The notes beneath the pieces are model-generated. The model saw only the letters and a list, made by a program, of their open reading frames with translations, made no database searches and had not been told where the DNA came from. From Zygnema cylindricum (lineage: Eukaryota; Streptophyta; Zygnematophyceae; Zygnematales; Zygnemataceae): DNA of 64,000 nt. This document shows, piece by piece, positions 35,461-56,493 of this stretch. Position 1 is the stretch's first letter, and every line of letters begins with the position of its first letter. Location: the NCBI GenBank assembly GCA_037447655.1, contig JBBHKE010000030.1, forward strand, positions 1 to 64,000, given 5' to 3'. A program made the position numbers and the translations under genes.

Positions 35461-36240
35461 TCAGAATCCCCAATATACAGAAATTTCTTTAATTTCACTC
35501 TCCTCATAAAAATCCAAATTTTCTTTAAACTTCCCAATGGAATTCATGGTGGATTTGAGATCTTCATGAAAATCCACATTCCGAGATTCCTCCACGGTGT
35601 GACGAGCCGGATTATATACTCGGTACAAATTCCCCTTCGCACTATAACCAACAAAAATTCCCGGCAACACCTTGGTGCAAATTTCCCTTTCCTCTTAATT
35701 GATTCCACATAAACCGTAGCATGACATCCCCTAATTCTCAAGTGATGAACCGTGGGCTTTCTACCACTCCACAACTCTTCCGGTGTTTAACTTCCGGAAA
35801 CCAAAGTGAGTCTTCGGTTACAAATGTAATTTGTCGTAGGAATGGTGTCTCCCCACAAAAACATCTCTCGTCCGGAGCTATGAACCATCGCACGGACCAT
35901 TTTTTGTAAAATACGATTATTCCTCTCGGCCACTCTATTTGAATCTTGAGAATAAGGCGCCGTGAATTGATGCCTTATCCCCCGCTCCTTACAATACCCC
36001 TCAAAAACAACAAACTCCCCTCGATTGTCCGACCGAATGGACTTAATCTTCTTATCAATTTGCCGCTCGGCCATTACATGCCATTCTTTAGATTTTTCAA
36101 ATGCATCCGATTTCTTTTCAATAAATACACCTATGACTTCCGAGAGTAGTCATCAACAATCACTAAAGTATACTTATTACCTCCAATTGTCTCCCGTTTA
36201 ATATGTCCACAAAGATCGATGTGAACAACCTCCAAAGGAT
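35461..36240 (-). pseudogene. Copia A integrase
   Basis: Pieces in several frames: the catalytic core with IRSDNRGEF and SNRVAERNN (35787-36074), a segment with GRKPTVHHLRIRGCHATVYV (35544-35774), and a C-terminal segment IFVGYSAKGNLYRVY (35461-35670). An aspartate of the HID-type motif lies upstream near 36215. Frame changes make it non-functional. Confidence 0.82.
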
Positions 36241-36247
36241 TTTGAGC

Positions 36248-36588
36248 TCAATGTTTGATGTTTTTATTCGGATGGGATTTCCGAATTTGACGTCCTTTGC
36301 TACATCCTCCACATCCGTTCACCTTCTCACCGGATGCGCGGTCCAAGCCCCTCACCGAAGAATGACGAATCATCTTCTTCAAACTTACCTCGGATGTGTG
36401 ACACATCCGATGATGCCATAAGGTAAGATCACCTTTCAACTCCGAAATTTGATGTGAAATTCCCTCGGTGGGAACTTTAGATTTCGGCCTCCTCCATAAG
36501 AGCCAACTATGATTCGCATCTGTTACAACCCCTTCTCCAATTACATTCCCATTCTTATTCCAAATCTCAAAAAAGTGATCACTGTCGA
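36248..36588 (-). pseudogene. Copia A GAG-pre-integrase zinc region
   Basis: LTLWHHRMCHTSEVSLKKM and CGGCSKGRQ give the H-x-H ... C-x2-C zinc-binding pattern of the Copia GAG-pre-integrase domain. It is joined upstream to foreign repeat sequence at 36588, so protease and gag are lost. Confidence 0.85.
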
Positions 36589-36838
36589 GCGTGCCGGAAA
36601 ACATAAGAGGAGGGCCCACTGCCCGGGTGATTGGCATCGGAGTCCTGCAAGCAACCCCCACCAGAATGCGAATGCTTCCCACCACAATGCCTATGCCCAC
36701 AACTACCCTTCGGGCCCTTGTGAGCATGCATGCAAAGGTGGGGATGAGTGTTTGGGAAGGGCGAAAAGATATTTCCTCCCCCCTCTCTTCCCCCCCCCCA
36801 GGCCGGGGGAAAGGATGAAATCCTTAGAGGTAGAAGCC
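36586..36838. repeat. Repeat X, left copy (Gypsy 3' end region)
   Basis: TGTCGAGCGTGCCGGAAAAC to ATCCTTAGAGGTAGAAGCC. It is a close direct copy of 37267-37524, including a polypyrimidine block that is a polypurine tract on the minus strand. The two copies lie about 680 bases apart. Confidence 0.85.
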
Positions 36839-36987
36839 ACGTGTTTTTTCCATGATACACTTTTGAGCAGCAAAGTTCTAAATTGACGTGAACCGCCTAA
36901 CTTTGACTCTCCTTAATAAATGCTCTACCCGGCTAATGGACCTGAACTAACGTCTTGCGGATAGCCAACAGCAAAATTTACAAGACT

Positions 36988-37266
36988 ATCCCAAAAATTA
37001 CACGACACTACACAAGAGAGCCCCCAAAGCGATAGGTGGCAGCTGGTAGAAGGTAACAGGGGGACAATCTTTATAACTGCATAACTTTGTCGTTTGGCCT
37101 CCGTTAAACGCGAAACAAAGTGCATTCGGCTCACTTGAGAAAATAGAAGAATCTGGTCTGGCTGAGTGCCCTGTTTTCTTGGTGTTCTTATTACCGTACC
37201 AAGGGAAAAGGCTTGGAAATCCTTGGTTTGATAAAAGTGGAGCCTGTGAAGCACCCAAGCTTGACA
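36988..37266 (-). repeat. LTR-like repeat Y, left copy
   Basis: About 279 bases ending ..GCACCCAAGCTTGACA are a diverged direct copy of 47874-48147. The pair flanks the Gypsy pol region and is the best candidate for its LTR sequence. Homology fades to the left of 36988. Confidence 0.6.
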
Positions 37267-37524
37267 GCTGTCGAGCGTGCCGGAAAACATGAGAGAACGG
37301 CCCACTGCCCGGGTGATTGGCATCGGAGTCTTGCAAGCAACCCCCACTAGAATGCGAATGCTCCCTACAACCATGCCTGTGCCCAATGCTGCCCGCCTTG
37401 TTCTTGTGAGCATGCATACAAAGGTGGGGATGAGTGCTTGGGGAGGGCGAAAAGATATTCCCTCCCCCCTCTCCTTCCCCCTCTTGGCCGTGGGAAAAGA
37501 GGGAATCCTTAGAGGTGGAACCGG
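37267..37524. repeat. Repeat X, right copy
   Basis: Direct copy of 36586-36838. On the minus strand it carries a strong purine tract (about 37463-37492) just downstream of the Gypsy integrase, suitable as a plus-strand primer site. Either it is 3' UTR or part of a larger LTR; the structure is not resolved. Confidence 0.8.
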
Positions 37525-37605
37525 GTCTTTGATTTCCCCCCCTCTTAGTCAACTGTGACTAAGACCTTCGAATAATTACCCCCCCAATTCGCAGTTCTCG
37601 CAAAA

Positions 37606-38976
37606 CTAGAGAGCATAGGTTTTAGGACGGGAGTCCCAAGAGGAGGGGAGACAAGACTGATGCCAACACAGGTCGCATATATCACAGACCAGTACAAATT
37701 TGTGGGAGGAAGATGGGAGGCATTTGGAGGAACACAAAGGGGGATCAGCAAAATAGGTAAGGTGGAAAGTTGGTTCGTCTTCCAATCCCAGGAGGTGACA
37801 AGGAGCTACATTGATCTGATTTTCCTTGATCCTCCGACCATCCTTCCCTTCAAGTGTCAAGACCCCTTTATTGTAGACTTCCACTACTTTCAAAATCACC
37901 CTCTCCGCTGAAATGTCCAGAGTGTCCTTTTTCTGTTGCATCCGATACACAAAATCCCCGGGCAGAAATCGCCGTTGCCGCGGGACAAAATTCCCGCTCC
38001 GGCGTTGCGAATACCAGAGTTGATCTCGATGCTGGGCTGCTTGCAAATTCCCCATAGCCAGAGGTATTTCCCGGTGAAATACCCTGGCCCTGTCGGCAAT
38101 CAGTTTTTTGACCGTTCCCTTATTGTCCATCTCCGGAAGGACCACCGCTTCGGCAGAGGCGGCTCCGGGTAGGATTGGGTGTCGTCCAAACAAAATGAAA
38201 TATGGACTGTAGGAGTGGAGGGATGCTTGCCGGCTGAACCTGTACCCCATGGCAATCCAAGGCACCTTTCTATCCCATTCTCCCAAATCCTCTTCCACAG
38301 AATATTTACGCAGTGACCGCTTCTTTGTGTGTACGCACCTTTCGGCCTATCCGTCGGCCTGCGGGTGGTCTCCGCTAGTCAGCCTGTGGTCGATAAGACA
38401 CAATTCCAACAAGTAAGAGAATTCTCCCGCAAATTCAGAGCCCTGGTCGGTCAAAACTTCAGCAGGGGCCCCAAATTGGGATAGCACTCTCTGCAAGAAT
38501 GCGTCTGCAATCGCCTTAGACTCCTTCCGAGGTAAGACCACCAATTCGATTCACTTGGAAAAGTGCTCTATCAATACCAGTACAAAGCGGTTTTCTTGTG
38601 TGCTTGTGGGGAGAGGGCCCAGCAGATCTAAAGACCACCGATAAAATATTCCCTGGATTGGGAGTGAGTGAAGCTGGGCACCCCCCTTTTTGTCGAAGGC
38701 TGCCTTAACTCGGTCACAGGAGGAACACGTTTGCACAATCTGGTTGACTCGGGTCCGCAACCCGTGCCACCAGTAAGATCTGGTGACCAAGGAGGTAGTC
38801 TGTTTCTGCCCAAAATGGCCACATTGTTGGTGAAGACGAAAAATCAGAGTCTCCCGGTCAGCCGAGGGAGGAACCACTTTCCTTGTCCCGTCAGCCCATT
38901 TGCGGATCAAAATACCCCTTTCCCATTCATATGCGGTCATTCGAGTCAAAACCCGTGATAGCTGCACTCCAGACAA
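37606..38976 (-). pseudogene. Gypsy integrase with C-terminal PHD-like finger
   Basis: One frame throughout, broken by two stops (38548-38550, TGA where Trp is expected after HFSK; and about 38345, TAG between QADG and AERC). The N-terminal zinc-binding pattern is H-x-H-like HQQCGHFG with TCSSC. The core has RWSLDLLGPLP, VLTDQGSEF and the QADG region. After the core, FLPGDFVYRMQ marks the C-terminal SH3-like part. The last 50 residues read LCSSKC, then VLVCDICDLCWHQSCLP: C-x3-C, then C-x2-C-x4-H-x2-C, close to a PHD finger. A neighbouring frame continues with SPPLGTP, as expected after the CL of a PHD finger, so a late indel probably truncates it. Confidence 0.85.
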
Positions 38977-39140
38977 ATGGGAAAGAGGGGAACCTTGTTG
39001 GATAGATTGAAGCGCATCAGGGTCATTCCATATGTCTTTTCACCCGGCCCCTATTGGCGCTTGCCCCTCCACGTCTGTAGAGAAAGCTGGCTTTTCCCCC
39101 CTAGATTGAAGAAGCGAAATAAAGGTAGAGGAAGCTCGGA

Positions 39141-40460
39141 TTAGTCCCTAACTGAATCTGGATCCTCATCATGGCGGGCCCCGGTGGAATCTTTGGTGGA
39201 AGGGTTGAGATTTCTGCTAAGTCCGTCGGCATTTCCATGAATCTCTCTGGCCCAATGGATTATGTCGAAGTCATATTCCTCTAGTATCAACACACATCTG
39301 GCGAGCTTGCCAGTTAACTTGCTGTTCTCCATAATCCACTTGAGAGGTTGGTGATCCGTAATCAGCGTGAAATGGACTCCGTATAGGTATGGTCTGAAGT
39401 GTTGGATGGCCCAAACCGCCGCCAGTAATTTTTTGTGGTAGCTGTTGTAATTTCCCTCCGCTCGGTTGTTACTCCTACTGGCGTAAGCTACCACATATTC
39501 GGCCCCAGCATCATCCGGTTGGGCTAAAACAGCTCCCAATCCAAACCGGCTCCAATCAGTATAAAGGAGAAAGGGTCTCTGGTGATGGGGCATTCGAAGG
39601 ACGGGGTGTTGCTTCAGGGAATCCTTGAGGAACTGGAAGGCAATCTGTTGCACCTCCGTCCACTGCCACTCCTGGTCGTTCCGCAGCAACTGGTTCAGAG
39701 GTTGAGCGTGACTGCTAAATTCAGGGATGAATCTGTGGTAATAGTTAGCCAGGCCTAAAAAGGTGCGGAGTGCAGAGACGTCTTGTGGAGGGGGAAGGGC
39801 ATCAAGGGCTGCAACCTTGACCATATGGGGACCCACTGTCCCGGGGGTAACTTCGTGTCCCAGGTAAATAATTTTCTGCACCCCAAAAATTCCCTTACCC
39901 GGGTGACATTTCAAGCCCGCCGCTTGGAGAGCCTGGAGTACAATCTGTATGTGCTCTAGGTGTTCCTCTAAAGTCGTTGAGAAAATGATTACATCGTCGA
40001 TGTAGCACCGTGCACAATCAATCCCCCGGAAAGCCTCGTCCATAGCACGTTGGAATTTGGCGGGCGCATTCTTCTGCCCTAATGGCATGTAGAGCCATTC
40101 GAACAACCAGGATCCTCCCCAAAAAGTTGTTCTTTCCCGGTGCTTTGGCTCCATAGCAATCTGGTGGAACCCATTTTTCATGTCCAGGGTGGAGTAAATT
40201 GTGGCCCCGAACAGCGAGTCAAAAATCTCTTCCGAGGTAGGCATTAGGTATCGGTCAGGTACAGTGGCCGTGTTTAGCATCCGGTAGTCTCCACACATCT
40301 GAAAGTCTACCGTTTTCCCAGAAGAGTCCTTCTTAGGTGGGAGAACAGTTGGGGACGCAAATCCATGGAGTCCGGTACTTTCCTGCACCAATCTTGCTTC
40401 CACCAGAGTTTGTACCTTTGCCGTGATGAACTCTTTTTCCTTGAAACTGAAAGGGTACTG
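39141..40460 (-). pseudogene. Gypsy reverse transcriptase and RNase H
   Basis: A long open frame with FQMCGDYRMLN, YSTLDMKNGFHQI, MPLGQKNAPAKFQRAMD, the catalytic CYIDDVIIFS, YLGHEVTPG, LRTFLGLANYYHRFIP, then RNase H (LLYTDWSRFGLGAVLAQ, AVWAIQHFRPYLYG, LITDHQPLKWI, HGNADGLSR). Both aspartates of YIDD are intact. It is in frame with the methyltransferase upstream, separated by a TAG near 40460, and in a different frame from the integrase downstream. Confidence 0.93.
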
Positions 40461-42044
40461 CTAATGCCAAACAGTTGACGTCTCGTCAATTAAATCAATT
40501 CGAAAGGGGGTTCGTTTGTAGATGCCTACGTCGGTATCTGACCAGGAGAACACATGTTTTTTCTTCTCCAACAGGTCAGAGAGCCGGGACTTTTGCTGTG
40601 GGTCCAACTGCTCCCCTAGAGTCCAATCCATCTTTCCATGTTCAACCGCTGCCCAGGCCTCCGGGGGTCTACCCCAACGGGAGATATCGAATTCCAACCC
40701 TACCAGTGGGTCTACCTCTTCTCCTCTTGTCAGAATGCTGCTGCTAAAAACTTCCGCTAAGCTGTCCCCTTCCGAGCCTCCGCTTCCCCCCACTAAGGAA
40801 TCTCTCAATTTTTGTAAAATGTGGGGACTGGAAAATTTTGATGATAAAAACTGTTTTCTTTCCTTCCTCCCCCCCTCAAGCTGCAAGTGAGCCTGCACCG
40901 CTAACAACTTTGGAGCTTGAAGGTAGTTAGCCCTTGATGTTGGAGACTGTATGCTAGGAAAGGCCAGAGAATGTTTTATCACCCATGTTATTGCATTGAG
41001 ATCCATGCTCTGTCCGAGTAGGCTGTACCTCTGAAGGTCACAAATACCTGGTGCCGCCGTGCTGGCAGGTTGGAATCCCATGGCTTGTTCTCCTTCTTCC
41101 ACCGTTGGTGTTGTCCATACTCCACTTACGTTGTCAAATATCATTCCGGTTGCTCCCTTTCAATACGTATGGCTGTTGGGGAAGGAAACCAAGGTTGGCA
41201 GTGCTCGCCTTGGTTGTCCTGGTTGGTTGCACCGGAAGAACCGAGGACGATCAGCCTTCGTTACTGGTGTGGCCATTCGCCCTGGCCCTAAAAGTTGTTG
41301 CAGGGTAATCTGAGGATCAGGGTTATGGTTGAGTAAGAGCTTGGTGAGGATTGACAAAGGTATCAAATTCGTCCAGTACGCCCTGACTCTGTGAGCCCTT
41401 GATCCCAGTTGTGCTGCATCGAAAACAAGTGGAGCTCCTAAAATCTTTTTGACTTTATTCCAGCTATTGGCGACTTGTTTTCTCTGATCATCTTCAGGGT
41501 GGACATTCTCCAAAACAAACCCCACTGGTGTGTCTGAGGACCGCTGCAGCCAAGAAATTAATTTTATCATTTGGAAGAAAGTTCGACTTCTGCTGTCCTG
41601 ATGTCCCTCCCCTTTCTCTGCTAGAGAGTATCGTTGACATGGCCATCCTGCAATCACCAAATATACTCGCCCTAGAATAGCAAGATGAGGTTTCAGGACA
41701 TTGCCGATATTTTGCGGAACACTTCGGTGTGATCTGCAGATGGCGGATACTGGGAGTTCCTAGGGATACAATTGGTGGAGTTGTTCTAGTCGGTGTTCAC
41801 TGACGGCTCGAGCATCCGGTGAGATTTCTACGGCCACGTATGACTCCACTTTATATCCAGCTTTGAAGACAGCCTCGAGGTCTGAGCTAATTCCAGAAAA
41901 TAGGGATAATATCCGGAGTCCAGAACACGGGATCGATAATGATACCACTTGTCGATTGAAATTCTGATTGTCAGGGGGAACTTCCGAAGATTTCGCTGGA
42001 GCTTCTTTTCCTTTGACAAAAACAGTTGTTAAGGCTTTGTCCAC
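40461..42044 (-). pseudogene. C5-cytosine DNA methyltransferase domain of the Gypsy polyprotein
   Basis: Predicted to transfer methyl from S-adenosylmethionine to cytosine C5. Motifs run in canonical order: motif I ILSLFSGI (41912-41889) with VAVEISPDAR; motif IV GWPCQRYS with the catalytic Cys codon at 41637-41639; motif VI FVLENV (about 41519-41502); motif VIII-like GSRAHRVRAYWTNL (about 41405-41364); motifs IX-X TPTVEEGEQAMGF and RYSLLGQSMDLNAITWVI (about 41112-40960). The HRVRAYWTNL and LLGQSMDLN segments recall the DNMT3-type clade. Canonical motif order argues against a DRM-type permuted enzyme. Two stops (TAG about 41757-41759, TGA about 41157-41155) break the frame. Residues after motif X (to 40461) are a linker with SWSDTDVGIYKRTPF leading into the reverse transcriptase. 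The domain is in frame with RT-RNase H, so it was part of pol. Confidence 0.92.
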
Positions 42045-42210
42045 TTCCCGCCGAAGTTTTGTTATCTGTGATAATCTGTTGTGATATTCCTCTTCCCACC
42101 GCTTGGAAATAGGGACTTGCTAAATTTCTTTGGCGATATCTGTGGAACTGCCAAAGAGTTCAGTTAGAGAGGTTGTAGTGTACACCGGGTAGCAACCAGC
42201 CACTAGGACA

Positions 42211-42615
42211 TTAGTCTTCCCTCGGTTCCATAAATCCAGAGGAACCACTACTTTGGTTCCTTCCCGATTTTTTGGGGTCCCGGACGGTACATTGTTCTTT
42301 CCACATGCTGAAACTCATATTGAGCCGGGTCCAGGTGGCCATTCCCAACAGAATTTCGAATTGAGTCCCTTCCACCACTAAGATGGGAAGTTCAATTTTC
42401 ACCCGTTGGCCTCCGTCATCAGAAAACTCGATGACCATGGCCTTGATTATTCCATGTACTGGTTGACTGCCGCTGCTACAGTGCTTAAGCATATGTTGCT
42501 TGGGCAGATTTCGGGCCAGAGTTCCTCGGGCATTTTGTGCAACGCGGAGGTGGTAATGAGGTTGGGGAGAGCTCTGGTGTCGACCACAGCGTCTGGTATC
42601 CCCCGTATCCGTTGA
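42211..42615 (-). pseudogene. Gypsy aspartic protease
   Basis: The active-site region reads AVVDTRALPNLITTSALHKM, where DTR stands in place of the usual DTG, and a C-terminal ILLGMATWTRLN matches the retropepsin ILG motif. Two frames are needed, so a shift lies near 42490. It precedes the methyltransferase directly. The Gly-to-Arg change next to the catalytic Asp would by itself inactivate it. Confidence 0.75.
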
Positions 42616-42661
42616 GCCGAAAGTTCCCGGTTCTGTTCAGTATGAGAGCCAGTGATAAGGC

Positions 42662-43552
42662 TTAGTAGTCCCTATCCACTATAGGGGTTTTAGGATCGGC
42701 GGACAGAAATGAGGCGGTTCGCAGAGTGGTCTTGTCTACCCCCCCCTTTCCAGGGTGGATTTCCTCTCCCAATGCCTGAATGAGGATTTCTTTGGGCAAG
42801 TTGTGGGACGATGCGAGGGTCTTCACGTGGGTGAGAGCATAGGGCATAAGGTGTCGGACTAGCATGACAGCCGGTTTGGAGGAGGGAAGTGTCACTTGCG
42901 GTGAAGAGGGAGATGAGTTTTGTTCCTGCTGGTCTTGATCTTGTTCTTCGTGCCCGCTTTCTGAGCTAGAATCGGGAATAGGAGGGGTTTGGGGATCTTC
43001 ATTCTTCGGGCGTTCGGCCATATATTTTTCGAACCACTCCTGATTGTCCTTTTTCTCTTGTTCCAGTGACTTCTTCTCTTGCTGCTGTTTGTCGTTCTGG
43101 AAATTTTCGAAACCGGGAGGCAGTTTCTTCGCGGATGGTGGAGGTGGGTCTGTGGGTTTTATCCCGAGACCTATTTTGTCGTTCAGAATAACGACCCTGG
43201 GAGTGAAGGACAGAGGCCCAGTAGCGTTCCTGTTATGGTCTCCTGGAGCTAGCTGTTGCCTGTCTCTTCTCTGCGCCACAATTGAGTTCCGGAGATGCCT
43301 GTGATTGTCCCCCACACCGACATTCCAAGCTCCAAAAAGAAAGGTTTGTGCATGATGTGCTTTAGGAGGTTCCATGTCCCACCCCATCACTTTGTCATCT
43401 TCTTCGCCCGCCACGGTTTCTTGTTCAAGCTCCGCAAGCATTTGTATTAACTCCTGTTTTCTTCGGTGGAGTTTTTGGGCGGCCGTCAAAGCTAGGGTCA
43501 TGGAGGGCGGTCCTAATCGCAGTGCCGCCAATTCTGCAGCCATGGCTGCCAT
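42662..43552 (-). pseudogene. Gypsy Gag-protease linker, charged
   Basis: A 296-codon frame without a recognised domain. A helical start (KLHRRKQELIQMLAELEQE) is followed by a Gln/Glu/Lys-rich coiled-coil-like stretch (NDKQQQEKKSLEQEKKDNQE), then a Ser/Pro-rich tail. It lies between the second zinc knuckle and the protease and is in a different frame from Gag. Confidence 0.65.
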
Positions 43553-43598
43553 CTGCTGGCTCTGTTTTTTGGATGATTACCTCATGGGTTAGTCGCGC

Positions 43599-44639
43599 TT
43601 AACCTGTTTGCTGTCGTTCAGGGTTCTCCGGGGTGCGGCGTCCCCAATGGTAAAGAAGCTGCAGTGGGAGAGGATTCATGACAGTTTCGCCTTCCCCGGT
43701 GAAGAGTGCATACTGCATCATTTCTTTTGGAACTCCATTCTTTCGGAAGCACTGCCCTTCCTTGTGACCCATGAAACCGCAAGCCTCACATTTGGAGCCC
43801 TCTGTAGTATATTTACCCCTCAGCTCATTGGAGATTTGCGCGTCATCGAATTTTGGAAGTTTTATCTGTCGCAACTGGGCTTGCAACATTTTTGCAGTCT
43901 CAGATCGTGGAGTTGGCTAGTAATTTTCTTTGTTAACCGGAGTTTTGTCATCCGACCCTCCTCCTTGTATCCTTTCTTGCTGCCTCTTTGTCCTTTCAGC
44001 TCTCTCCTTCTCCCATTCCTTTTGCTTAACAGCTAATGCCGGTTTGAGCTTTCGGGGACATCGCTTCCATCCATGACCGGTTTGTTGACAGTTTAAACAG
44101 TTATGGAGGAAGACGCGATCATCGGCCCCCATGGCGGGTTCGGATCCGCTATGCGCCACCTGTTTCCCCTTGAGCTTCCGTAAAGCTAAGAGTTCGGGTG
44201 ACTCCTCATTTTCAGGAGGCATTTCCCCGGCGAATCCTGCAAAGTTTCCACGAGTTTTCCCTATCACCGTCTTTTCTTGGGCCTCTTTGTTTACGAAGTG
44301 ATCATAGAGCTTCATTGCGGCCAGAGAGATGTCTTTTGCGGTTGGATTGACGTCCTGGATGGCCTGTCCCGCAATCCAATTATCGAGGGCAGCCTGTCCC
44401 GTGGGTCCGAACGAGTTTCGGACGGCGATGAAGTATTTTGTTGCCATTGCCGGGAGATCAATGGTGGAGAGTTTGGTCTTTTGACAAAGGCTGGACAGTC
44501 TGTTAAAAAGAGTCTGGGGAGTTTCACTTTTTTGACAACAGAATTCCGTAAATTCCTTGATAGCAGATTCATTTCTTTCGGTGTAAAGAAGTCTCCAGGC
44601 GTTCAGAAGTGTTGTACAAGGGTTTGGGTCTGCAACCAT
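43599..44639 (-). pseudogene. Gypsy Gag, capsid and two CCHC zinc knuckles
   Basis: One frame with a stop at about 43914-43916. The N-terminal part (LNAWRLLYTERNESAIKEF, FNRLSSLCQKTKL, FIAVRNSFGPTGQAALDNWI) resembles a retrotransposon Gag capsid. The first knuckle is CLNCQQTGHGWKRC, and the second, after the stop, is CEACGFMGHKEGQC. Both are C-x2-C-x4-H-x4-C RNA-binding motifs. Confidence 0.85.
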
Positions 44640-44717
44640 CCGAGTGGTTGCTCTCGCAGCCTGGATGGCCTAAAGCTGAGCAACATAAGCTCGTCCTTGC
44701 GCCTGTAGTTTCATGTC

Positions 44718-45800
44718 TTATGAGAAGGTTGCGGTGACGGGAGCGGCTGCAACGGCAGCCAAGTGTGCTTCAGCCTGCAAAACTGCCTCATCAAGGGTAG
44801 GGTCTGAAATTTTGATGCTGGGAGCCATCAGAAGAGGTTGTCGCTCCTTGTAGTCGGCCAAAGCTCCACCAACAAGATAGTTCACCATCATGGGAAAAAG
44901 TGTGGTCTCGAAGTCATCCGGAATGGCTCCGCCCCTATATTTGTTGATTCCAGATTGGGTGAACAACTTCGGCAGCAATTCGAAATCAGAAAAAGCGATT
45001 CTCGAGCTTTCTCCTGTAAAGATCCTTGCGTCCCCCATTTCTTTCTCCTCCTCTGCAAGGTTAATGAATCGGGGAGATGATTCTCTGGTGGGACTAACAA
45101 ACAGAACCGGTGAAATGACCCCTGGATCCGCGTCGGGTGGCTCGGAGCCACCTCCTGCTCCTGTAGACGGTGCTGCCTGATGAGGGGTGGCCATCCCCCC
45201 CAGTGAAGAAGTTCCGGTTACAGGTGGGATAGTGAGAGGATGTGTATCTCCCTTGAGTTGGCCCTTGGGAAACGAGGAGCTTATCAGCTTGGGAAAAGTT
45301 GCCTGAAGTCTTGCTCCTCTATACCTAGGAGAGGCGCGTTCCTCCCGGAGGACTGGTTCCACCGATGGAATGTGGAGAATAGGTTTAATCACCGGTGTTC
45401 CTTGAGGGATTGGTGGAGAAGGGGATGGAGATGACTGAGGACTACGAGGGAAAGGTGTCTGTCTCCGTGTACGCCTTCTAGAGGTTTCTGGTGGAGGAGT
45501 TCCTTCGCTACAAGCAGGAGAACGTCGGTGAGGAGGTGAGTAGGCAGGAACGTTGTACTTGTAGGGTAAGACAGGTGGTCTCGGTGACCCACGCACTGCA
45601 GCGGCCGGAGAAACAGAAGGCGAAGGAGAGGATGCCTGAGGTGGAGATGGAGGAGGAGTGGAAAGTTGAAGAGAGATGTGTTGTCTTTGGTCAGGTTGTA
45701 ATAATACCACGACCTCCGCAGTTGAAGAACGAGCCACTGAGACAAAAGTAGGACGCTCTGTGGTGGCTGCTGCAACGTTACCCGGTAGATCTGCACCCAT
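44718..45800 (-). pseudogene. Gypsy Gag N-terminal region, proline-rich
   Basis: A 360-codon frame in phase with the Gag capsid part, separated from it by TAA and TAG stops at about 44640-44717. The first 230 residues are Pro/Ser-rich and disordered. The last 120 (FSDFELLPKLFTQSGINKYR, FPMMVNYLVGGALADYK) are more ordered and lead into Gag. No domain name can be given with confidence. Confidence 0.7.
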
Positions 45801-46559
45801 CTCCTGTTTATTAGGTCCTGTCGTTTCCCCCCCTTGACGCTGAAGAGAGGACTCTGGTCTACGTTCCGAAGAAGTCTAGGGAGTTGGAGTCTGAGTAGGG
45901 GCAGTCTGCCAGGTAGGTTGTCTCTCAGCAGAGGGGCTTGTCTCTCTAGGAAGAGATACCTGTCCACTAAGGATTCCCCTTGATATCCATCTAGCCTCCC
46001 TAATTAGGAACAATTCCTATTTTAGGGCCCTCTTCCGTTCTTCTTCTAGGGCCTCTTAATCTATGGTGATGGGTCTAGCCATCGCCGTAGCCTAACTTTG
46101 GGATCGTAGGATATCAACCAATTTTTGCTTGTTGCTCACCACCCCCGAGAGATGCGCAATCCCCAACCTGGGTACTTGAGGATCGGTGGGTCTAGAACGC
46201 CACAACTCCTCAGATGGTCGAACTACCGGGCAGATGGAGACTTTGAGCTTGGAGAAGGGGAGTACAAAGGGAAGAACGACTCCGCTTTAGGTCGGGGAGC
46301 GAACCTGCACTTGCGGTCTCGTTGATCGAACCGATACCCCTTCTTAGGCTCTGGTAACCCTCGCTTGCTAGTCCCTTCCTTGGCCCGTGTCTGAGGGATC
46401 CCCCTGCCCGGAGATGGCCAGCTGGTAGTAGTGTCCCGAGATTGAGTGGGTTGCGAGTAGGAAGTTGATGGTCCCCCCGGTTGCTCCTATACTGAAGTTG
46501 GGGAGCCGCTCTCTGACGAACTACTCAGTATCTCAACTACACTCCCACTGGGCGTACCA

Positions 46560-47107
46560 CCTTGGCTCGGTCTGACTTGGCCACCTGCTGCACGAACTCC
46601 TTAACCTTCAACTCATGGAGATTATGAAGGGCTAAAATTTCTTTGCGACCTGGCCGGTTATGATCAGCCAAAATCTCTGGATCAAGGTAAATCTTTGCTA
46701 TTGGTGCCTTAGACCTGGAATAGGGGCCAGTCTTGGGAAGGTGACTAGGGACCGCTTCCTTTGTGTGCTAACCCCTTTCTACGGCTTTTAGGGGATATGG
46801 GTGGCCTCTCTGCCTTCTCCCCTGCCCAAGCTCGTGCTGACTAGGACAAAGTTGGAAAACTCTCAGGGGAAAAGGTAGGTGGAGGTGGAGGAGAGGGTCG
46901 CCTCTCTGGCTGCGTTGGAGGAGTTTTGACTGCAACCTCCGGAGGCCTCTCTCCCTTAAGAAACCGCTCTATGTGTAAAGGGGAGCCAAATGGGGGTGCT
47001 TCCTCGGGCATCTGAGACTCTTCCTCTTGAGCCACCGCTTCCTGCCTCTCTTGCTCTTCCGATATGACACCCGGAAGATCCTTATCCTGAACTTCTCCTC
47101 CCCCCAT
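46560..47107 (-). pseudogene. Gypsy 5' ORF fragments
   Basis: Two pieces: 46841-47107 starts MGGGEVQDKDLPGVI and is Glu/Pro-rich; about 46560-46710 reads IYLDPEILADHNRPGRKEIL and FVQQVAKSDRAKVV. They lie upstream of Gag in frames broken by stops, and probably belong to the original N-terminus of the polyprotein. The stretch 45801-46559 is degraded further. Confidence 0.5.
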
Positions 47108-47109
47108 AG

Positions 47110-47873
47110 CTGACTAGAGAAGAAGATCTAAATCCCCTTATAAAGTACTCCGACCTGAGCACCTATCCTCTTTAACCTAAAGAGACAGGTTGTTGTTTCA
47201 GTACTGTGATGGTTTGTCGAAAGTCTAACAAAAGTCCTCTCATAATCCACTATCCTGGGACAAAAGATTCTGATAATCGCCCCCGGAGGAAACCCAACCG
47301 AAGCCACAAAAAGAACTACCAAAGACAGAGCAAAGATACTTCCACTCAGAAATATAAAAGGATAGAAATATAAAGAATGCTGTCTCATAATTAACAATAT
47401 CACCTTGCCCTTAGAAAAAATGGAGAATTAAGATAGAATATGAAAAATAACAAGCGAGCTCAACCTACCCCCAAAAAGTAACGAGGACACCAAAAGGAGA
47501 CGAAATCTCCCCCCGAAAACCCCGGAACAGATAAGGCCTCCTTAACTCCTCGGTTTCCGCGACCCGGAACCGGCAAGACCCTTATTGATTTCCAACAAAC
47601 ACCAGTCCACAAATTGCCCAAACAGGAAAGACAGTGCCAACCACCAAACCGGACTACGATTTCCACAAAGGACGGATGAAAATCAAGATGGCAATAGGGT
47701 CACAATCACACACAAAACAAAAATTCTCCACAAGAAAGTTTGCTGGAATTTCTAGGGTTTTTCTCAGGAGACAGTACTGAAACAGCAACCTGTCTCCTTC
47801 GGCCCCAAGTGCCTTATATAGACAAAGTTTGTCCTATCGACAGTGCCAAAGTCAAAGCAACACCAAAGACCAA
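47110..47873 (-). other. Gypsy leader / possible remainder of the 5' LTR
   Basis: Non-coding. A 25-bp motif AGACAGGTTGTTGTTTCAGT (47183) occurs inverted at 47772-47796. On the minus strand TATATAAGGC (about 47810-47820) could be a TATA box for element transcription. The limit between LTR and leader was not resolved. Confidence 0.45.
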
Positions 47874-48147
47874 TCCCAAAAATTACGTGACACTACACAA
47901 TGTAGCCCCCAAAGGGACAGGTGGCAGCTTGTCGTAGGTAACAGGATGACAATCTTTATAACTGAATAACTTTGTCGTTTGGCCTCCGTTGGACGCGAAA
48001 CCAAGTGCGTTCGGCTCAGTTAAGGAAATAGAAGAATCTGGTCTGAGTGAGCTATTTTCTCGTTGCTTTTATTACCGTACAAAGGGAAAAGGCTCAGAAA
48101 TCCTTGGTTCGATAAAAGTGGTGCCTGTGAAGCACCCGAGCTTGACA
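47874..48147 (-). repeat. LTR-like repeat Y, right copy
   Basis: Direct diverged copy of 36988-37266; both end CTTGACA on the plus strand (TGTCAAG as minus-strand start). Immediately after 48147 begins an unrelated plus-strand Gypsy fragment, so 48147 is a sharp element boundary. Confidence 0.65.
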
Positions 48148-49189
48148 AACATAGGTTCTAGATCCCATCATCACACTTTAACATATTATCGGACCAGGGT
48201 GAATGGCCACCCCTGTAACCACAGTTGATTGAACGCCCTTCTTCTATTGCAATAAACCCGAAAATCCTCGAAGGGCCCTGCCGACCCTGGTATTTTTCCA
48301 TGACATCCATGTTTTCCGGAAAGGCGCACCAAGGATGATCTTTGACTATACGGCCGCTACGTGGATAGCACCAAGTATTGAGGAACAAGAACGAGCAATG
48401 AGATTTCGACCGGCAACCATAGCAACACCAAGGTTATGAGCCTCAAAAAAGTGTAGTTTAATCGGGCAAAGTATGGATTTGAATGCATTTATATGGGTGC
48501 TACGGCATTCTCCTGCATTATCCAACCTTCAGTCTCCAAAGCAAAGGGCAACATACCTTCAATCTCCACTGTTGTTGGCCATGTAAGCTACACCGTGAAT
48601 CATTATTAGCCTCATGTACTCTATATCGGCACCCCAAAATTTTGACATTGATACCTTAAATAGAATAAATTACACTATTCAAGGATGTGGACCATAATCT
48701 GACACGTATCATGGCACTAAACTAGAATGAATGACACAAATTAATAAATGACACTAATAATTTCTATACGCTAATAACGATTCACGGTGTACTTTACAGC
48801 TTGAGGGGGGGAGAGAGGCAAAAAGGGGAAAATTCACCAAATTACGTTCAAATAGCACACTGAACCTAAGATTTTCCTCAGTGGGTTGGAGCGAAGGCTC
48901 AAAACAGGGTAGTTTAGGGGAAGTTAGCAGCGGCATCGTTTAGTTGCCAAGCAATGGACAGATCTAAAGGTAGAGCTAGAATTTGACATCTCCCGCTACG
49001 ATCTACCATCGAAAGCATTGGCAGTAGTGGAACCTGGTAAGATGGACTTGGCTTTAGGGGAACAGCTAGACCCAGAGCAAAAGGCCTGACTCTCCAAGCT
49101 CTTAGAGGAGAACAACCACGTGTTCTCTTGGTCTGACACAAATGTAGGGATCTATAAGGGGACCCCATTCGGATTGACCTGACCGACAA
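48148..49189 (+). pseudogene. Second Gypsy fragment with methyltransferase C-terminus (opposite strand)
   Basis: Translated pieces parallel 41360-40490 of the minus-strand Gypsy: NPRRALPTLVFF, MIFDYTAATWIAPSIEEQER (motif IX region), LIGQSMDLNAFIWVLRHSPA (motif X), QLEGGREAKRGKF, then LEFDISRYDLPSKALAVVEP and HVFSWSDTNVGIYKGTPF. Several stops interrupt it. A MITE (48589-48791) splits it, and a Copia LTR starts at 49190. It differs clearly from the minus-strand copy, so it derives from an older or different member of the same family. Confidence 0.85.
48589..48791. mobile_element. TA-target MITE inserted in the Gypsy fragment (203 bp)
   Basis: Begins TACACCGTGAATCATTATTA and ends CTAATAACGATTCACGGTGTA. 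Comparison with the uninterrupted minus-strand Gypsy shows the pre-insertion site AGC-TA-CTTACAGCTTG; the TA is now present on both sides. This fixes the target duplication of the whole family as TA and the element as CACCG...CGGTG. Confidence 0.95.
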
Positions 49190-50058
49190 TGTTGAAATAT
49201 CTAGTTTTTAGGTATTTTATAGGTCTAAAGTATTGGCGGAAAGAGATAAGGAAGATGTAGACAGCCTACCTCCATCACTTTTCTCTAGCCCCCATACTTG
49301 TTGTAGTCACAGAAAGAGAGAGAGAGTTATGGAACCATGGTTGCCTCAACTCTATAAGCAAAACTAAAGAGTGACTTAAGTCACTCTCAACAAAATGTTG
49401 AGTTTAACAGGACTCGAACCTTTGACCAGCAGAGCGCAACGTAGCCGTTACCTCTTACCAGTCTGTTGTAGAAGTTTGTAGTTTTATATTTATTTAAACT
49501 ATTGTATATTACTAAAACCGACAAACTAAAATTTGATTCATGGAACACATAACTAGTTGAAGTTTAGTGTGGACGTCATTGGGCACGAAACAAAAGAATC
49601 AACTATTTGTTTCGACGGCCGACATTGAATGTCGGGTTTAATTCGATGGCACACATTACCGCCGAGATCGCGAAATGGTCACTTTGGCTTTTATAGACGT
49701 GGCATGACCTGAAGCCACATGGAGGGATAACATTTGATCGTAAAAGTTCCGCTGAACATAAAGACGAGTTGAAGGGTGACACGCGTAAACTTAGTGGCCT
49801 TGACGTACACAGGCCGTACAGAAATGACATCGACCGTAATACCATTCAGTACTTTACAATCATATGATTGGTTTGTACTTCAGTAGATAAAGGTTGTGAT
49901 AGGGGTTTAGAACTTAGGAAAATTTGGTAGGTAGTCACTTCTCTCTAAAGAGCTTTGTATAAAATTGGCATTTTTGCCGGCTTATAACTTATCGGCTAGT
50001 TGGCTGTTTTTAGTGATTCTTTTTGCTGCAGACGTATGCGAGTCTCGGCTGTACAGAA
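49190..50058 (+). repeat. 5' LTR of old Copia C, first part
   Basis: Starts TGTTGAAATATCTAG. In order it resembles the 50059-51100 LTR (TATTTTATAGGTCTAAA, CAGCCTACCTCCATCAC, GTTATGGAACCATGG, GATTCTTTTTGCTG), but is strongly diverged. It is interrupted at 50058 by Copia B and resumes at 56499 until about 56618. Confidence 0.8.
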
Positions 50059-51100
50059 TGTAGAAACTAATGGTTTTATTAGTATTTTCTAGGTCTAAAT
50101 AGAAATATAGAAAGAAGCCGAGGCAGTCTACCTCTAACTTCTCTCTCCAAATCTCAAACTTGTCGCAGTCACTGAGAAATTGGAGAGGAAGCTAGAGCCA
50201 TGGCTACCTTGGCTATCCTGAGGTTTACGGGAATTTTATACTAGGGTTTATTTATTTATTTAAAAGGAATGTGCCGGCGGCAGGATTTGATCCTTGTACC
50301 TACCGGCCGGCAGACATGAAATAGCCGGTAGCCTTAGCCGTTAGATCTAGCAGTAGTATTACGTGATATATAGTTTGATAATTATATAAATTAGAATACG
50401 TACGATAATTCATTTAACTGTTACGATTTACGGGATACATAGATCCGGTACGAATGACAGTACGGATTACGAATCAATACCGCGCATTTGTTTCGGAAGT
50501 GAAATAAATACCGCGCATGTATTTATTACGGCCACGATTAAATCTGAATTTAATCGGACGGCCGGGATTAGCGCCGAGATCACGGAGGAAGATTTCGGCG
50601 GTTTGTGGCCATCGCCACATCGGATGACGCGTGGCAAAATTCCGTTGGATCGTAGAATCTCCGGAGATTATGGCACCGAATCCGGATTTGACATGTGTCG
50701 ACATTTAGGGCATGTCGTACAATGTCCGTACATAAAGTACACCGGCGGCTGTACTTTTACGTACGGAACTCAATTCTGATTGGTTCCGTACATCAGTAGA
50801 TAGAGTCTGTGAGAGAGATAGGACTTAGAAAAATTAGAAGATAGGACCCCCTCTCCCAGAGAGCTTCTGTACAAAAGGTCAACTTTGACCCCCCATAACT
50901 TACTGCTCAGGGGAGCAAATTCAAAGATTCTTTTTGCTATCGACTCAGGGGAGTCTTGTCTTCACAAGGGTGAAGTTGGTCAGCGTTTTTGTCTGCCAGG
51001 GTGGCAGTTATTTTTGCTTAAACACAAAGGGGTCAGGATTATCCTAGAGGCTTCTTGGAAGCTGTCCACTCTGAGGACTTATGGAGGTCTCAGAGTTTCA
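50059..51100 (+). repeat. 5' LTR of Copia B (1042 bp)
   Basis: Starts TGTAGAAACTAATGG, ends CAGAGTTTCA, with the same length as the 3' LTR. Differences seen: ACATGAAAT/ACAGGAAAT, GGCAAAATT/GGCGAAATT, ATGTGTCG/ATGTGACG, CACAAGGG/CACAGGGG, GAAGCTG/GAAGATG. Confidence 0.97.
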
Positions 51101-55438: not shown

Positions 55439-55451
55439 AAAATAAGGGGAG
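55438..55451 (+). other. Polypurine tract of Copia B
   Basis: GAAAATAAGGGGAG lies directly before the 3' LTR and is the expected plus-strand primer site. Confidence 0.8.
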
Positions 55452-56493
55452 TGTAGAAACTAATGGTTTTATTAGTATTTTCTAGGTCTAAATAGAAATA
55501 TAGAAAGAAGCCGAGGCAGTCTACCTCTAACTTCTCTCTCCAAATCTCAAACTTGTCGCAGTCACTGAGAAATTGGAGAGGAAGCTAGAGCCATGGCTAC
55601 CTTGGCTATCCTGAGGTTTACGGGAATTTTATACTAGGGTTTATTTATTTATTTAAAAGGAATGTGCCGGCGGCAGGATTTGATCCTTGTACCTACCGGC
55701 CGGCAGACAGGAAATAGCCGGTAGCCTTAGCCGTTAGATCTAGCAGTAGTATTACGTGATATATAGTTTGATAATTATATAAATTAGAATACGTACGATA
55801 ATTCATTTAACTGTTACGATTTACGGGATACATAGATCCGGTACGAATGACAGTACGGATTACGAATCAATACCGCGCATTTGTTTCGGAAGTGAAATAA
55901 ATACCGCGCATGTATTTATTACGGCCACGATTAAATCTGAATTTAATCGGACGGCCGGGATTAGCGCCGAGATCACGGAGGAAGATTTCGGCGGTTTGTG
56001 GCCATCGCCACATCGGATGACGCGTGGCGAAATTCCGTTGGATCGTAGAATCTCCGGAGATTATGGCACCGAATCCGGATTTGACATGTGACGACATTTA
56101 GGGCATGTCGTACAATGTCCGTACATAAAGTACACCGGCGGCTGTACTTTTACGTACGGAACTCAATTCTGATTGGTTCCGTACATCAGTAGATAGAGTC
56201 TGTGAGAGAGATAGGACTTAGAAAAATTAGAAGATAGGACCCCCTCTCCCAGAGAGCTTCTGTACAAAAGGTCAACTTTGACCCCCCATAACTTACTGCT
56301 CAGGGGAGCAAATTCAAAGATTCTTTTTGCTATCGACTCAGGGGAGTCTTGTCTTCACAGGGGTGAAGTTGGTCAGCGTTTTTGTCTGCCAGGGTGGCAG
56401 TTATTTTTGCTTAAACACAAAGGGGTCAGGATTATCCTAGAGGCTTCTTGGAAGATGTCCACTCTGAGGACTTATGGAGGTCTCAGAGTTTCA
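55452..56493 (+). repeat. 3' LTR of Copia B (1042 bp)
   Basis: Same ends and length as the 5' LTR; followed by the CAGAA target duplication at 56494-56498. Confidence 0.97.

Follow-up and report, generated by a model that had tools for sequence, protein, structure and literature searches.

A DNMT3-type cytosine methyltransferase inside Pol of Ty3/Gypsy elements in the Zygnema cylindricum genome, and the conserved UAG ahead of it in one of two families

Cytosine methylation is a transposon-silencing mark in many hosts, and an element that keeps a cytosine methyltransferase of its own under selection therefore raises the question of what it gains. This question is posed by a stretch of 64,000 nucleotides from Zygnema cylindricum (GenBank assembly GCA_037447655.1, contig JBBHKE010000030.1, positions 1 to 64,000; the window in the following), in which an earlier note, made from the letters of the sequence, had described a C5-cytosine DNA methyltransferase (DNMT) lying in frame between the protease and the reverse transcriptase (RT) of a Gypsy retrotransposon. 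The observation of a DNMT within a Gypsy Pol is confirmed by our analysis, and the interpretation that came with it is partly supported. The element in the window, an old copy that is no longer active, belongs to a Ty3/Gypsy family with a DNMT3-type enzyme inside Pol, and it is composed as follows:

36582..48147, minus strand: whole Gypsy-DNMT element, a degenerate copy, bounded by the left repeat A1 and the last repeat, B2, with repeats and coding domains
47338..48147, minus strand: 5' terminal repeat; A1 covers 47873-48147 and begins TGTCAAGC, and the repeat continues to about 47338
44718..45875, minus strand: gag remnant, a 385-aa frame that by eye resembles the 716-aa gag frame of copy L016 (see below) and has no Pfam match
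43599..44669, minus strand: gag remnant with two CCHC-like knuckles in two frames, recognized by eye in the translations
42211..43576, minus strand: remnant of the protease region in two frames, frameshifted, resembling the protease frame of L016
42120..42122, minus strand: in-frame UAG between protease and DNMT, window context UAG-CAA-GUC
40890..41930, minus strand: DNMT3-type C5-cytosine methyltransferase domain, motifs I to X, domain ends approximate
40461..40890, minus strand: linker between DNMT and RT, with a stop at 40461-40463
39141..40460, minus strand: RT and RNase H (Pfam RVT_1 1.3e-24, RT_RNaseH 4.8e-34)
38551..39039, minus strand: integrase, H2C2 zinc-binding part and start of the core (PF17921 5.6e-16)
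37606..38346, minus strand: end of the integrase and C-terminal PHD finger (37633-37728), eroded; PHD E 0.0054, under the Pfam cut-off
37268..37520, minus strand: repeat B1, 86.2% identical to B2, ending 1 base before A2
36988..37266, minus strand: repeat A2, from the repeat comparison
36582..36835, minus strand: repeat B2, right end; the distance between the start of A2 and the end of B2 is 685 nt here and about 1.47 kb elsewhere

The five DNMT motifs that had been named are all present on the minus strand in canonical order and in one frame (LSLFSGI 41889-41909, GWPCQ 41634-41648, LENV 41502-41513, HRVRAYW 41373-41393, LLGQSMDLN 40995-41021), and the RT-RNase H part (40460-39141) shares this frame. 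The earlier note had proposed a search with PF00145, whose failure would have spoken against its reading, and this search does find the middle piece of the window DNMT (E 1.3e-8, 35 bits, cut-off 22). The description of the enzyme as being in frame holds for DNMT and RT, but the frame is broken in the window: three in-frame stops (41760-41762, 41160-41162 and 40461-40463) cut the DNMT-linker part, and the gag, protease and integrase pieces sit in several frames, those of protease and integrase outside the DNMT frame. Because of these stops and displaced pieces, the window copy has to be regarded as dead. The CCHC pattern of its gag remnant is also present in relatives, and the protease frame of L016 matches Asp_protease_2 slightly under the cut-off of 24.3 (E 2e-4, 22.3 bits).

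In the source genome (352.8 Mb in 2,689 contigs), a search with the middle DNMT piece gave at least 150 scored matches of 1,515 candidates, with 61-100% identity; all genome-wide family counts given here are lower bounds. With so many matches in the window's own genome, the DNMT is neither a chance similarity nor a one-off insertion, and the possibility, considered in the earlier note, of an unrelated gene that was inserted once is contradicted by many copies with a shared frame. The note had suggested a search for intact copies, and copies with an unbroken frame from the DNMT to the PHD finger were found. Two of the 20 window-family loci that were fetched are open, L016 with one frame of 1,520 aa that comprises DNMT, linker, RT, RNase H, integrase and PHD finger, and L017 with one of 1,525 aa in the same order. 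A genome search with PF00145 revealed a second family (at least 123 scored of 782 candidates in that search), whose representative L056 has a single open frame of 2,395 aa with gag including CCHC, protease, DNMT, RT, RNase H, integrase and PHD finger, the CCHC and protease being under the Pfam cut-offs; at least 111 places of this type were scored of 1,909 candidates. The placement of the DNMT between protease and RT thus stands for the window family and for L056. As judged by the Pfam order, L056 and L016 have the Ty3/Gypsy succession of protease, RT, RNase H and integrase with a Gypsy-type RT, and the RT-RNase H part matches Ty3-G Gag-Pol (7q5b) with 272 bits. The integrase is of the DDE type, as PF17921 (H2C2) and PF00665 (rve) are both above cut-off in L016 and L056; in L016, 34 residues lie between the second D and the E. 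When the best 40 RT matches were compared by hand with the DNMT matches, one beside an N run being set aside, 28 of 39 had a listed DNMT match directly upstream; for the other 11, no DNMT was among the matches listed, so some of them may be devoid of it. No stop interrupts the DNMT in 17 of 55 window-family copies, and 38 copies have such stops. As a separate observation, the CpG observed/expected ratio is 0.63-0.69 in nine window-family loci versus 0.89 in the 2,395-aa frame of L056; the lower value would fit methylation and decay with age, the two families being otherwise unmatched.

To which type does this methyltransferase belong? In a profile search of solved structures (60 of 66 rows), DNMT3A ranked first with 82.5 bits, followed by DNMT3B (76), HhaI (45), DRM2 (41, a rearranged enzyme that is hence handicapped in such a comparison), HaeIII (39), DNMT2 (31) and DNMT1 (13, with an insignificant E of 0.32), and a single-sequence search agrees with a DNMT3-type assignment. 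The fold model of the L016 DNMT is of low confidence (mean pLDDT 57, pTM 0.63), and all 50 of its 50 listed fold matches are entries of DNMT3 complexes, with TM values by target length of about 0.70-0.76 for isolated catalytic domains. By scores alone, the Gypsy-borne DNMT resembles DNMT3 more than it does DNMT1, CMT, DRM, DNMT2 or bacterial enzymes, and the DNMT3-like character that had been claimed for it is favored by profile ranking and fold matches alike. We also considered an origin of the DNMT outside eukaryotes, using pattern scans that detect fairly near relatives only. Among 84,980 prokaryote species, 37 candidate stretches were found and none was a relative, and of 47 stretches in the viral scan, one was related, at 25% identity; bacterial and viral origins were therefore both set aside.

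The motifs I to X follow each other in unrearranged order in the alignment, and the residues expected to matter are kept in the window family: the catalytic Cys in 54 of 55 copies, the Glu of ENV in 52 of 55, the His of motif VIII in 54 and the Asn of motif X in 54 of 54, with an Arg conserved alongside. Median dN/dS of the DNMT is 0.42 (189 pairs) and 0.29 (251 pairs) in the closer divergence classes, in which dead copies weigh, and falls to 0.19 (98 pairs) and 0.09 (372 pairs) at greater depth. Of the 1,485 pairs, 575 were too distant for binning, and dS is saturated in the deepest class, with a median of 2.2. The RT values in the same classes are 0.35, 0.24, 0.095 (34 pairs) and 0.03 (337 pairs). 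Judged from these ratios, the DNMT is under purifying selection, and since its dN/dS is above that of the RT in every class, the constraint is weaker than on the RT. The two domains also travel together, as DNMT and RT distances correlate in 32 copies with r 0.34, a value that was reached in 0 of 2000 permutations.

A feature that bears on the mode of expression lies directly ahead of the DNMT. A UAG closes the protease frame of L016, Pol resumes directly behind it in the same frame, and L017 has the same UAG plus a protease stop further upstream. Of the 55 window-family copies, three are unaligned at this end and two align only from codon 12 or 14; in the remaining 50, this position is UAG in 47, UAA in two and UUG in one, with the proviso that L013 and L014 have equal scores and may be one duplicated copy. 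The context is mostly UAG-CAA-UUC, and CAAUUC follows the stop in 46 of 52 rows. Across the 1,519 Pol codon columns counted behind the UAG, not one is interrupted by stops in as many as 20% of the copies. All 44 copies counted have CAA directly after the UAG, and among 14 other conserved Gln columns within the first 400 codons, 13 mix CAA and CAG and one is fixed as CAA. The UUC after it is kept in 44 of 45 copies, but five of nine other conserved Phe columns are equally one-sided (92-96%), and the fixed UUC is therefore weak support for a readthrough context. Each of the residues directly behind the UAG, QFPISKRW, is kept in 44 to 46 of 44 to 46 copies counted, and no conserved Met exists at the start of the Pol frame in the alignment of window-family copies. 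For comparison, the context of TMV permits 6-10% readthrough in Arabidopsis, where UAG outperforms UAA and UGA, and the tested type-I context is UAG-CAA-UYA (PMC2754532), from which UAG-CAA-UUC of the window family differs at the last base. Programmed readthrough is the simplest reading of the conserved UAG, and it would imply that the DNMT is made as a Pol product only. It would not be general across the families, since the unbroken copy L056 has no stop before the DNMT. A use of UAG as sense codon was considered and rejected, as the frames of 1,520, 1,525 and 2,395 aa have no inner stop and all three kinds of stops occur in other copies. Separately, a weak stem UUCCC/GGGAA is predicted just behind the UAG (z -3.6 versus column shuffles, first 90 columns, 18 non-redundant copies), a weak lead without covariation shown.

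The conserved UAG narrows the answer to the initial question, as the enzyme would then be bound to Pol, which is scarce and packaged, and would not be a free protein made in abundance. We give a probability of roughly 60% to the whole explanation that the DNMT is made by readthrough, packaged as part of Pol, and most likely methylates newly made element DNA. In this mechanism, normal termination at the UAG would yield Gag-protease, and a minority of ribosomes would read through to produce Gag-protease-DNMT-RT-RNase H-integrase-PHD. According to the readthrough model, the DNMT would therefore be made in Pol amounts and packaged with RT. Within the particle or the pre-integration complex, it would most likely methylate cytosines of the new element DNA, and the methyl mark could make this DNA look like that of the host or bring it into silent chromatin once it arrives, while the PHD finger might help to choose the chromatin site. 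Candidate benefits would be hiding, self-restraint or a protection of the cDNA. The copy number and age range within one genome, together with a sister family that has an unbroken gag-pol frame, make the question testable.

What else could the enzyme be kept for? It might act on host chromatin, with PHD finger and integrase guiding the methylation of the integration site, so that the new copy would be silent and do little harm. We consider this unlikely. Chromoviruses carry a chromodomain behind the integrase, and in both Zygnema families the PHD finger occupies this very place, C-terminal behind the integrase. In L056 it is clear by profile (E 1.5e-9) and resembles histone readers in its matches to solved structures (PHF12 63 bits over two stretches, BAZ2B 50, KDM5-type about 45-49). 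The PHD finger of the window family is weak by profile, with 17.5 bits in L016 and a best solved match of 24.5 bits; the full cysteine-histidine pattern is present in L016 and L017. The PHD finger that the earlier note had associated with the element is thus well founded for the second family, and in the window copy and L016 it stays under the Pfam cut-off. Moreover, with readthrough little of the enzyme would be made and it would stay within particles, which argues against an action on host chromatin. The rival explanations are in part compatible with one another.

Quite improbable, in our view, is a retention of the DNMT for a non-catalytic role such as nucleic-acid binding or RT folding, or for a methylation of RNA. 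In motif IV, the residue that precedes the catalytic Cys is a nearly invariant Pro, and in the second family (of which at least 111 copies were scored) it is changed to Glu in 13 of 14 sampled copies and to Val in one (L057-L070); 11 of the 14 read GWEC, and at the Trp one has a stop and one a Ser. The change to Glu may weaken catalysis in this family, and RNA methylation has been raised for LINE-type elements by de Mendoza et al. (PMC5890265). In the window family, the conservation of the Cys, Glu, Arg and motif X residues speaks against such a role. We give about the same low rating to the idea that the UAG is an ordinary stop and Pol arises by re-initiation or from a separate mRNA. The stop-free L056 frame would agree with this, but the Pol start has no conserved Met, conservation begins with the codon after the UAG in the protease frame, and the CAA is fixed. 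A passenger DNMT, captured once and persisting by hitch-hiking, is very improbable and already disfavored: the stops within the DNMT of most copies and the RT copies that may lack it could be quoted in its favor, but purifying selection and the retention over a wide metagenomic clade (see below) oppose it. Our preferred reading thus remains the methylation of new element DNA by a readthrough-made, packaged enzyme.

The terminal repeats pose a second puzzle, namely how an element with DIRS-like split repeats and a DDE integrase is copied and inserted. The order in the window is A1 (48147-47873), coding part, B1 (37520-37268), A2 (37266-36988), B2 (36835-36582), and the window family, with its repeats split in this way, lacks a pair of equal terminal LTRs. 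A1 and A2 are 86.7% identical over 279 columns, the 5' repeat of the window is 92.4% identical over 538 columns to the 3' repeat of a copy on contig C2139, and the end of B and the start of A form an imperfect palindrome, GCTYGACAG/CTGTCAAGC. Genome-wide, at least 40 A matches of 389 candidates and at least 40 B matches of 425 were scored. C599, C1178 and C1927 have B-A-B arrangements in which a single base separates B1 from A2 and B2 lies 1.47-1.49 kb away from B1, so that the DIRS-like layout was found on these contigs and in the window, and B pairs lie 1,470 apart on C1884 and 1,465 apart on C2086. A self-comparison of the 20 loci gave no B-A-B; most of them end too soon behind A2 to hold one. 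The C2139 copy has no second B within 2.8 kb behind A2; another B on the same strand lies 8.7 kb off and may be its B2 behind a nested insertion. Within the examined stretch, repeats of the second family were not found. Tyrosine recombinase gave no Pfam match in ten window pieces, in gag, protease and Pol of L016 outside an unscanned gap of about 0.7 kb between gag and protease, or in L056.

Some observations on these repeats and on the surroundings may be added. A stretch of 943 nt that takes in the Pol end, B1 and A2 (window 36824-37766) is 99.8% identical to the C2139 copy (L071), whereas the A1 repeats of the two are only 89% alike, which could reflect recent duplication, conversion or a chimaera. 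On C2086 (242168-254684), there is a B-A ahead of the coding part (254684-254151) in addition to the downstream B pair, perhaps as a tandem of two elements that share a B|A junction. Remnants of a Copia-like integrase and pre-integrase region (35787-36581, minus strand, by eye) start directly at the B2 end, and the upstream flank of A1 has no matching Copia half, so an empty site is not demonstrable; this flank (48148-48300) resembles, by eye in the translations, the antisense of another DNMT-element fragment. A 300-nt direct repeat with 99% identity (50056-50355 and 55449-55748, 5.4 kb apart) perhaps represents the LTRs of a young separate element.

How far does this kind of element reach beyond Zygnema? 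A profile search of 5.8 billion proteins, with the best 8,000 candidates scored, gave 126 matches, of which 120 were listed. Among these metagenomic proteins, the DNMT is followed by RT in P0007, P0013, P0019, P0021 and P0056, and preceded by protease in P0037, P0038, P0077, P0087, P0088, P0093 and P0101; another arrangement is seen with RNase H before the DNMT in P0042 and P0055 and integrase behind it in P0022 and P0024. A tree was calculated with 67 rows, namely 14 from this genome, 46 metagenomic proteins with a DNMT stretch of at least 170 aa, five proteins taken for bacterial outgroups and two DNMT3 pieces. In this tree, the DNMTs of the elements group into a single clade (100/100). Long branches meet here as well as in a quicker, agreeing tree without five rows, and neither tree places the capture relative to host DNMT3, CMT or DRM genes. 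The four rows with RNase H-DNMT or DNMT-integrase order form one clade together with four unlabelled rows (100/99). Monophyly of the two Zygnema families was not rejected (p-AU 0.195), and in the careful tree the metagenomic P0007 is nearer to the window family than the second family is (support 99/92). By these trees, the metagenomic relatives are one clade in which the DNMT is placed either between protease and RT or between RNase H and integrase. A larger picture can be drawn, which we offer tentatively and consider possible but doubtful as a whole: a wide and old Gypsy lineage of algal or other eukaryotic hosts with PAT-like split repeats and a DDE integrase, whose Pol, made by readthrough, would combine a DNMT3 as writer with a PHD finger as reader, and which would methylate its own cDNA before insertion and have moved its DNMT within Pol between the two places.

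Known systems share several of these features. In the catalytic domain, animal DNMT3A, 3B and 3C are the best match to the element DNMT by sequence and fold, with 20-24% identity in the listed fold alignments and a long branch between; unlike in animal DNMT3, Pfam matches to L016 Pol and L056 include neither an ADD nor a PWWP domain. The A1-B1-A2-B2 split direct repeats are common to the window family and PAT, Kangaroo and Ngaro elements (PMC4157794), which are tyrosine-recombinase elements, whereas the window family has a DDE integrase (rve, H2C2). Capture of a DNMT by a retrotransposon is also known from SymbioDIRS-Dnmt3 and SymbioLINE-Dnmt of Symbiodinium, which the authors regard as independent captures; the SymbioDIRS types have DNMT and RT in one ORF with two different domain orders (PMC5890265). 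These elements differ in using a tyrosine recombinase or LINE machinery and not a Gypsy RT with a DDE integrase.

Among the matches listed in searches of open-licence papers, there was no further report of Gypsy-DNMT elements beyond that of de Mendoza et al. (2018, PMC5890265), and none on a PHD finger with a Gypsy integrase. The closest known element is KnitGypsy-Dnmt3 of Klebsormidium nitens from this report, which we compare by description and not by sequence. It likewise has an intronless Dnmt3-type DNMT in a Gypsy Pol ORF, with conserved catalytic residues and purifying selection, and despite its Gypsy domains its repeats are structured like those of a DIRS element (legend of Fig. 4). In yeast it had no activity, a result that the authors called inconclusive, and according to them K. 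nitens has fewer DNMT elements than Symbiodinium. The earlier note had suggested that position and PHD finger may define a distinct lineage; as the Gypsy-DNMT kind was published in 2018, this holds in part only. The Zygnema element differs in residing in another genome (353 Mb), with many copies. The main text of the 2018 report does not contain the term PHD, and its accessible part tells neither of a conserved stop nor of the place of the DNMT within Pol. As far as that report could be compared, the Zygnema elements and their relatives thus go beyond it in the conserved UAG, the PHD finger, the occurrence of two families side by side in the same genome, the replacement of Pro by Glu in the second family, and the two alternative positions that the DNMT takes within Pol.
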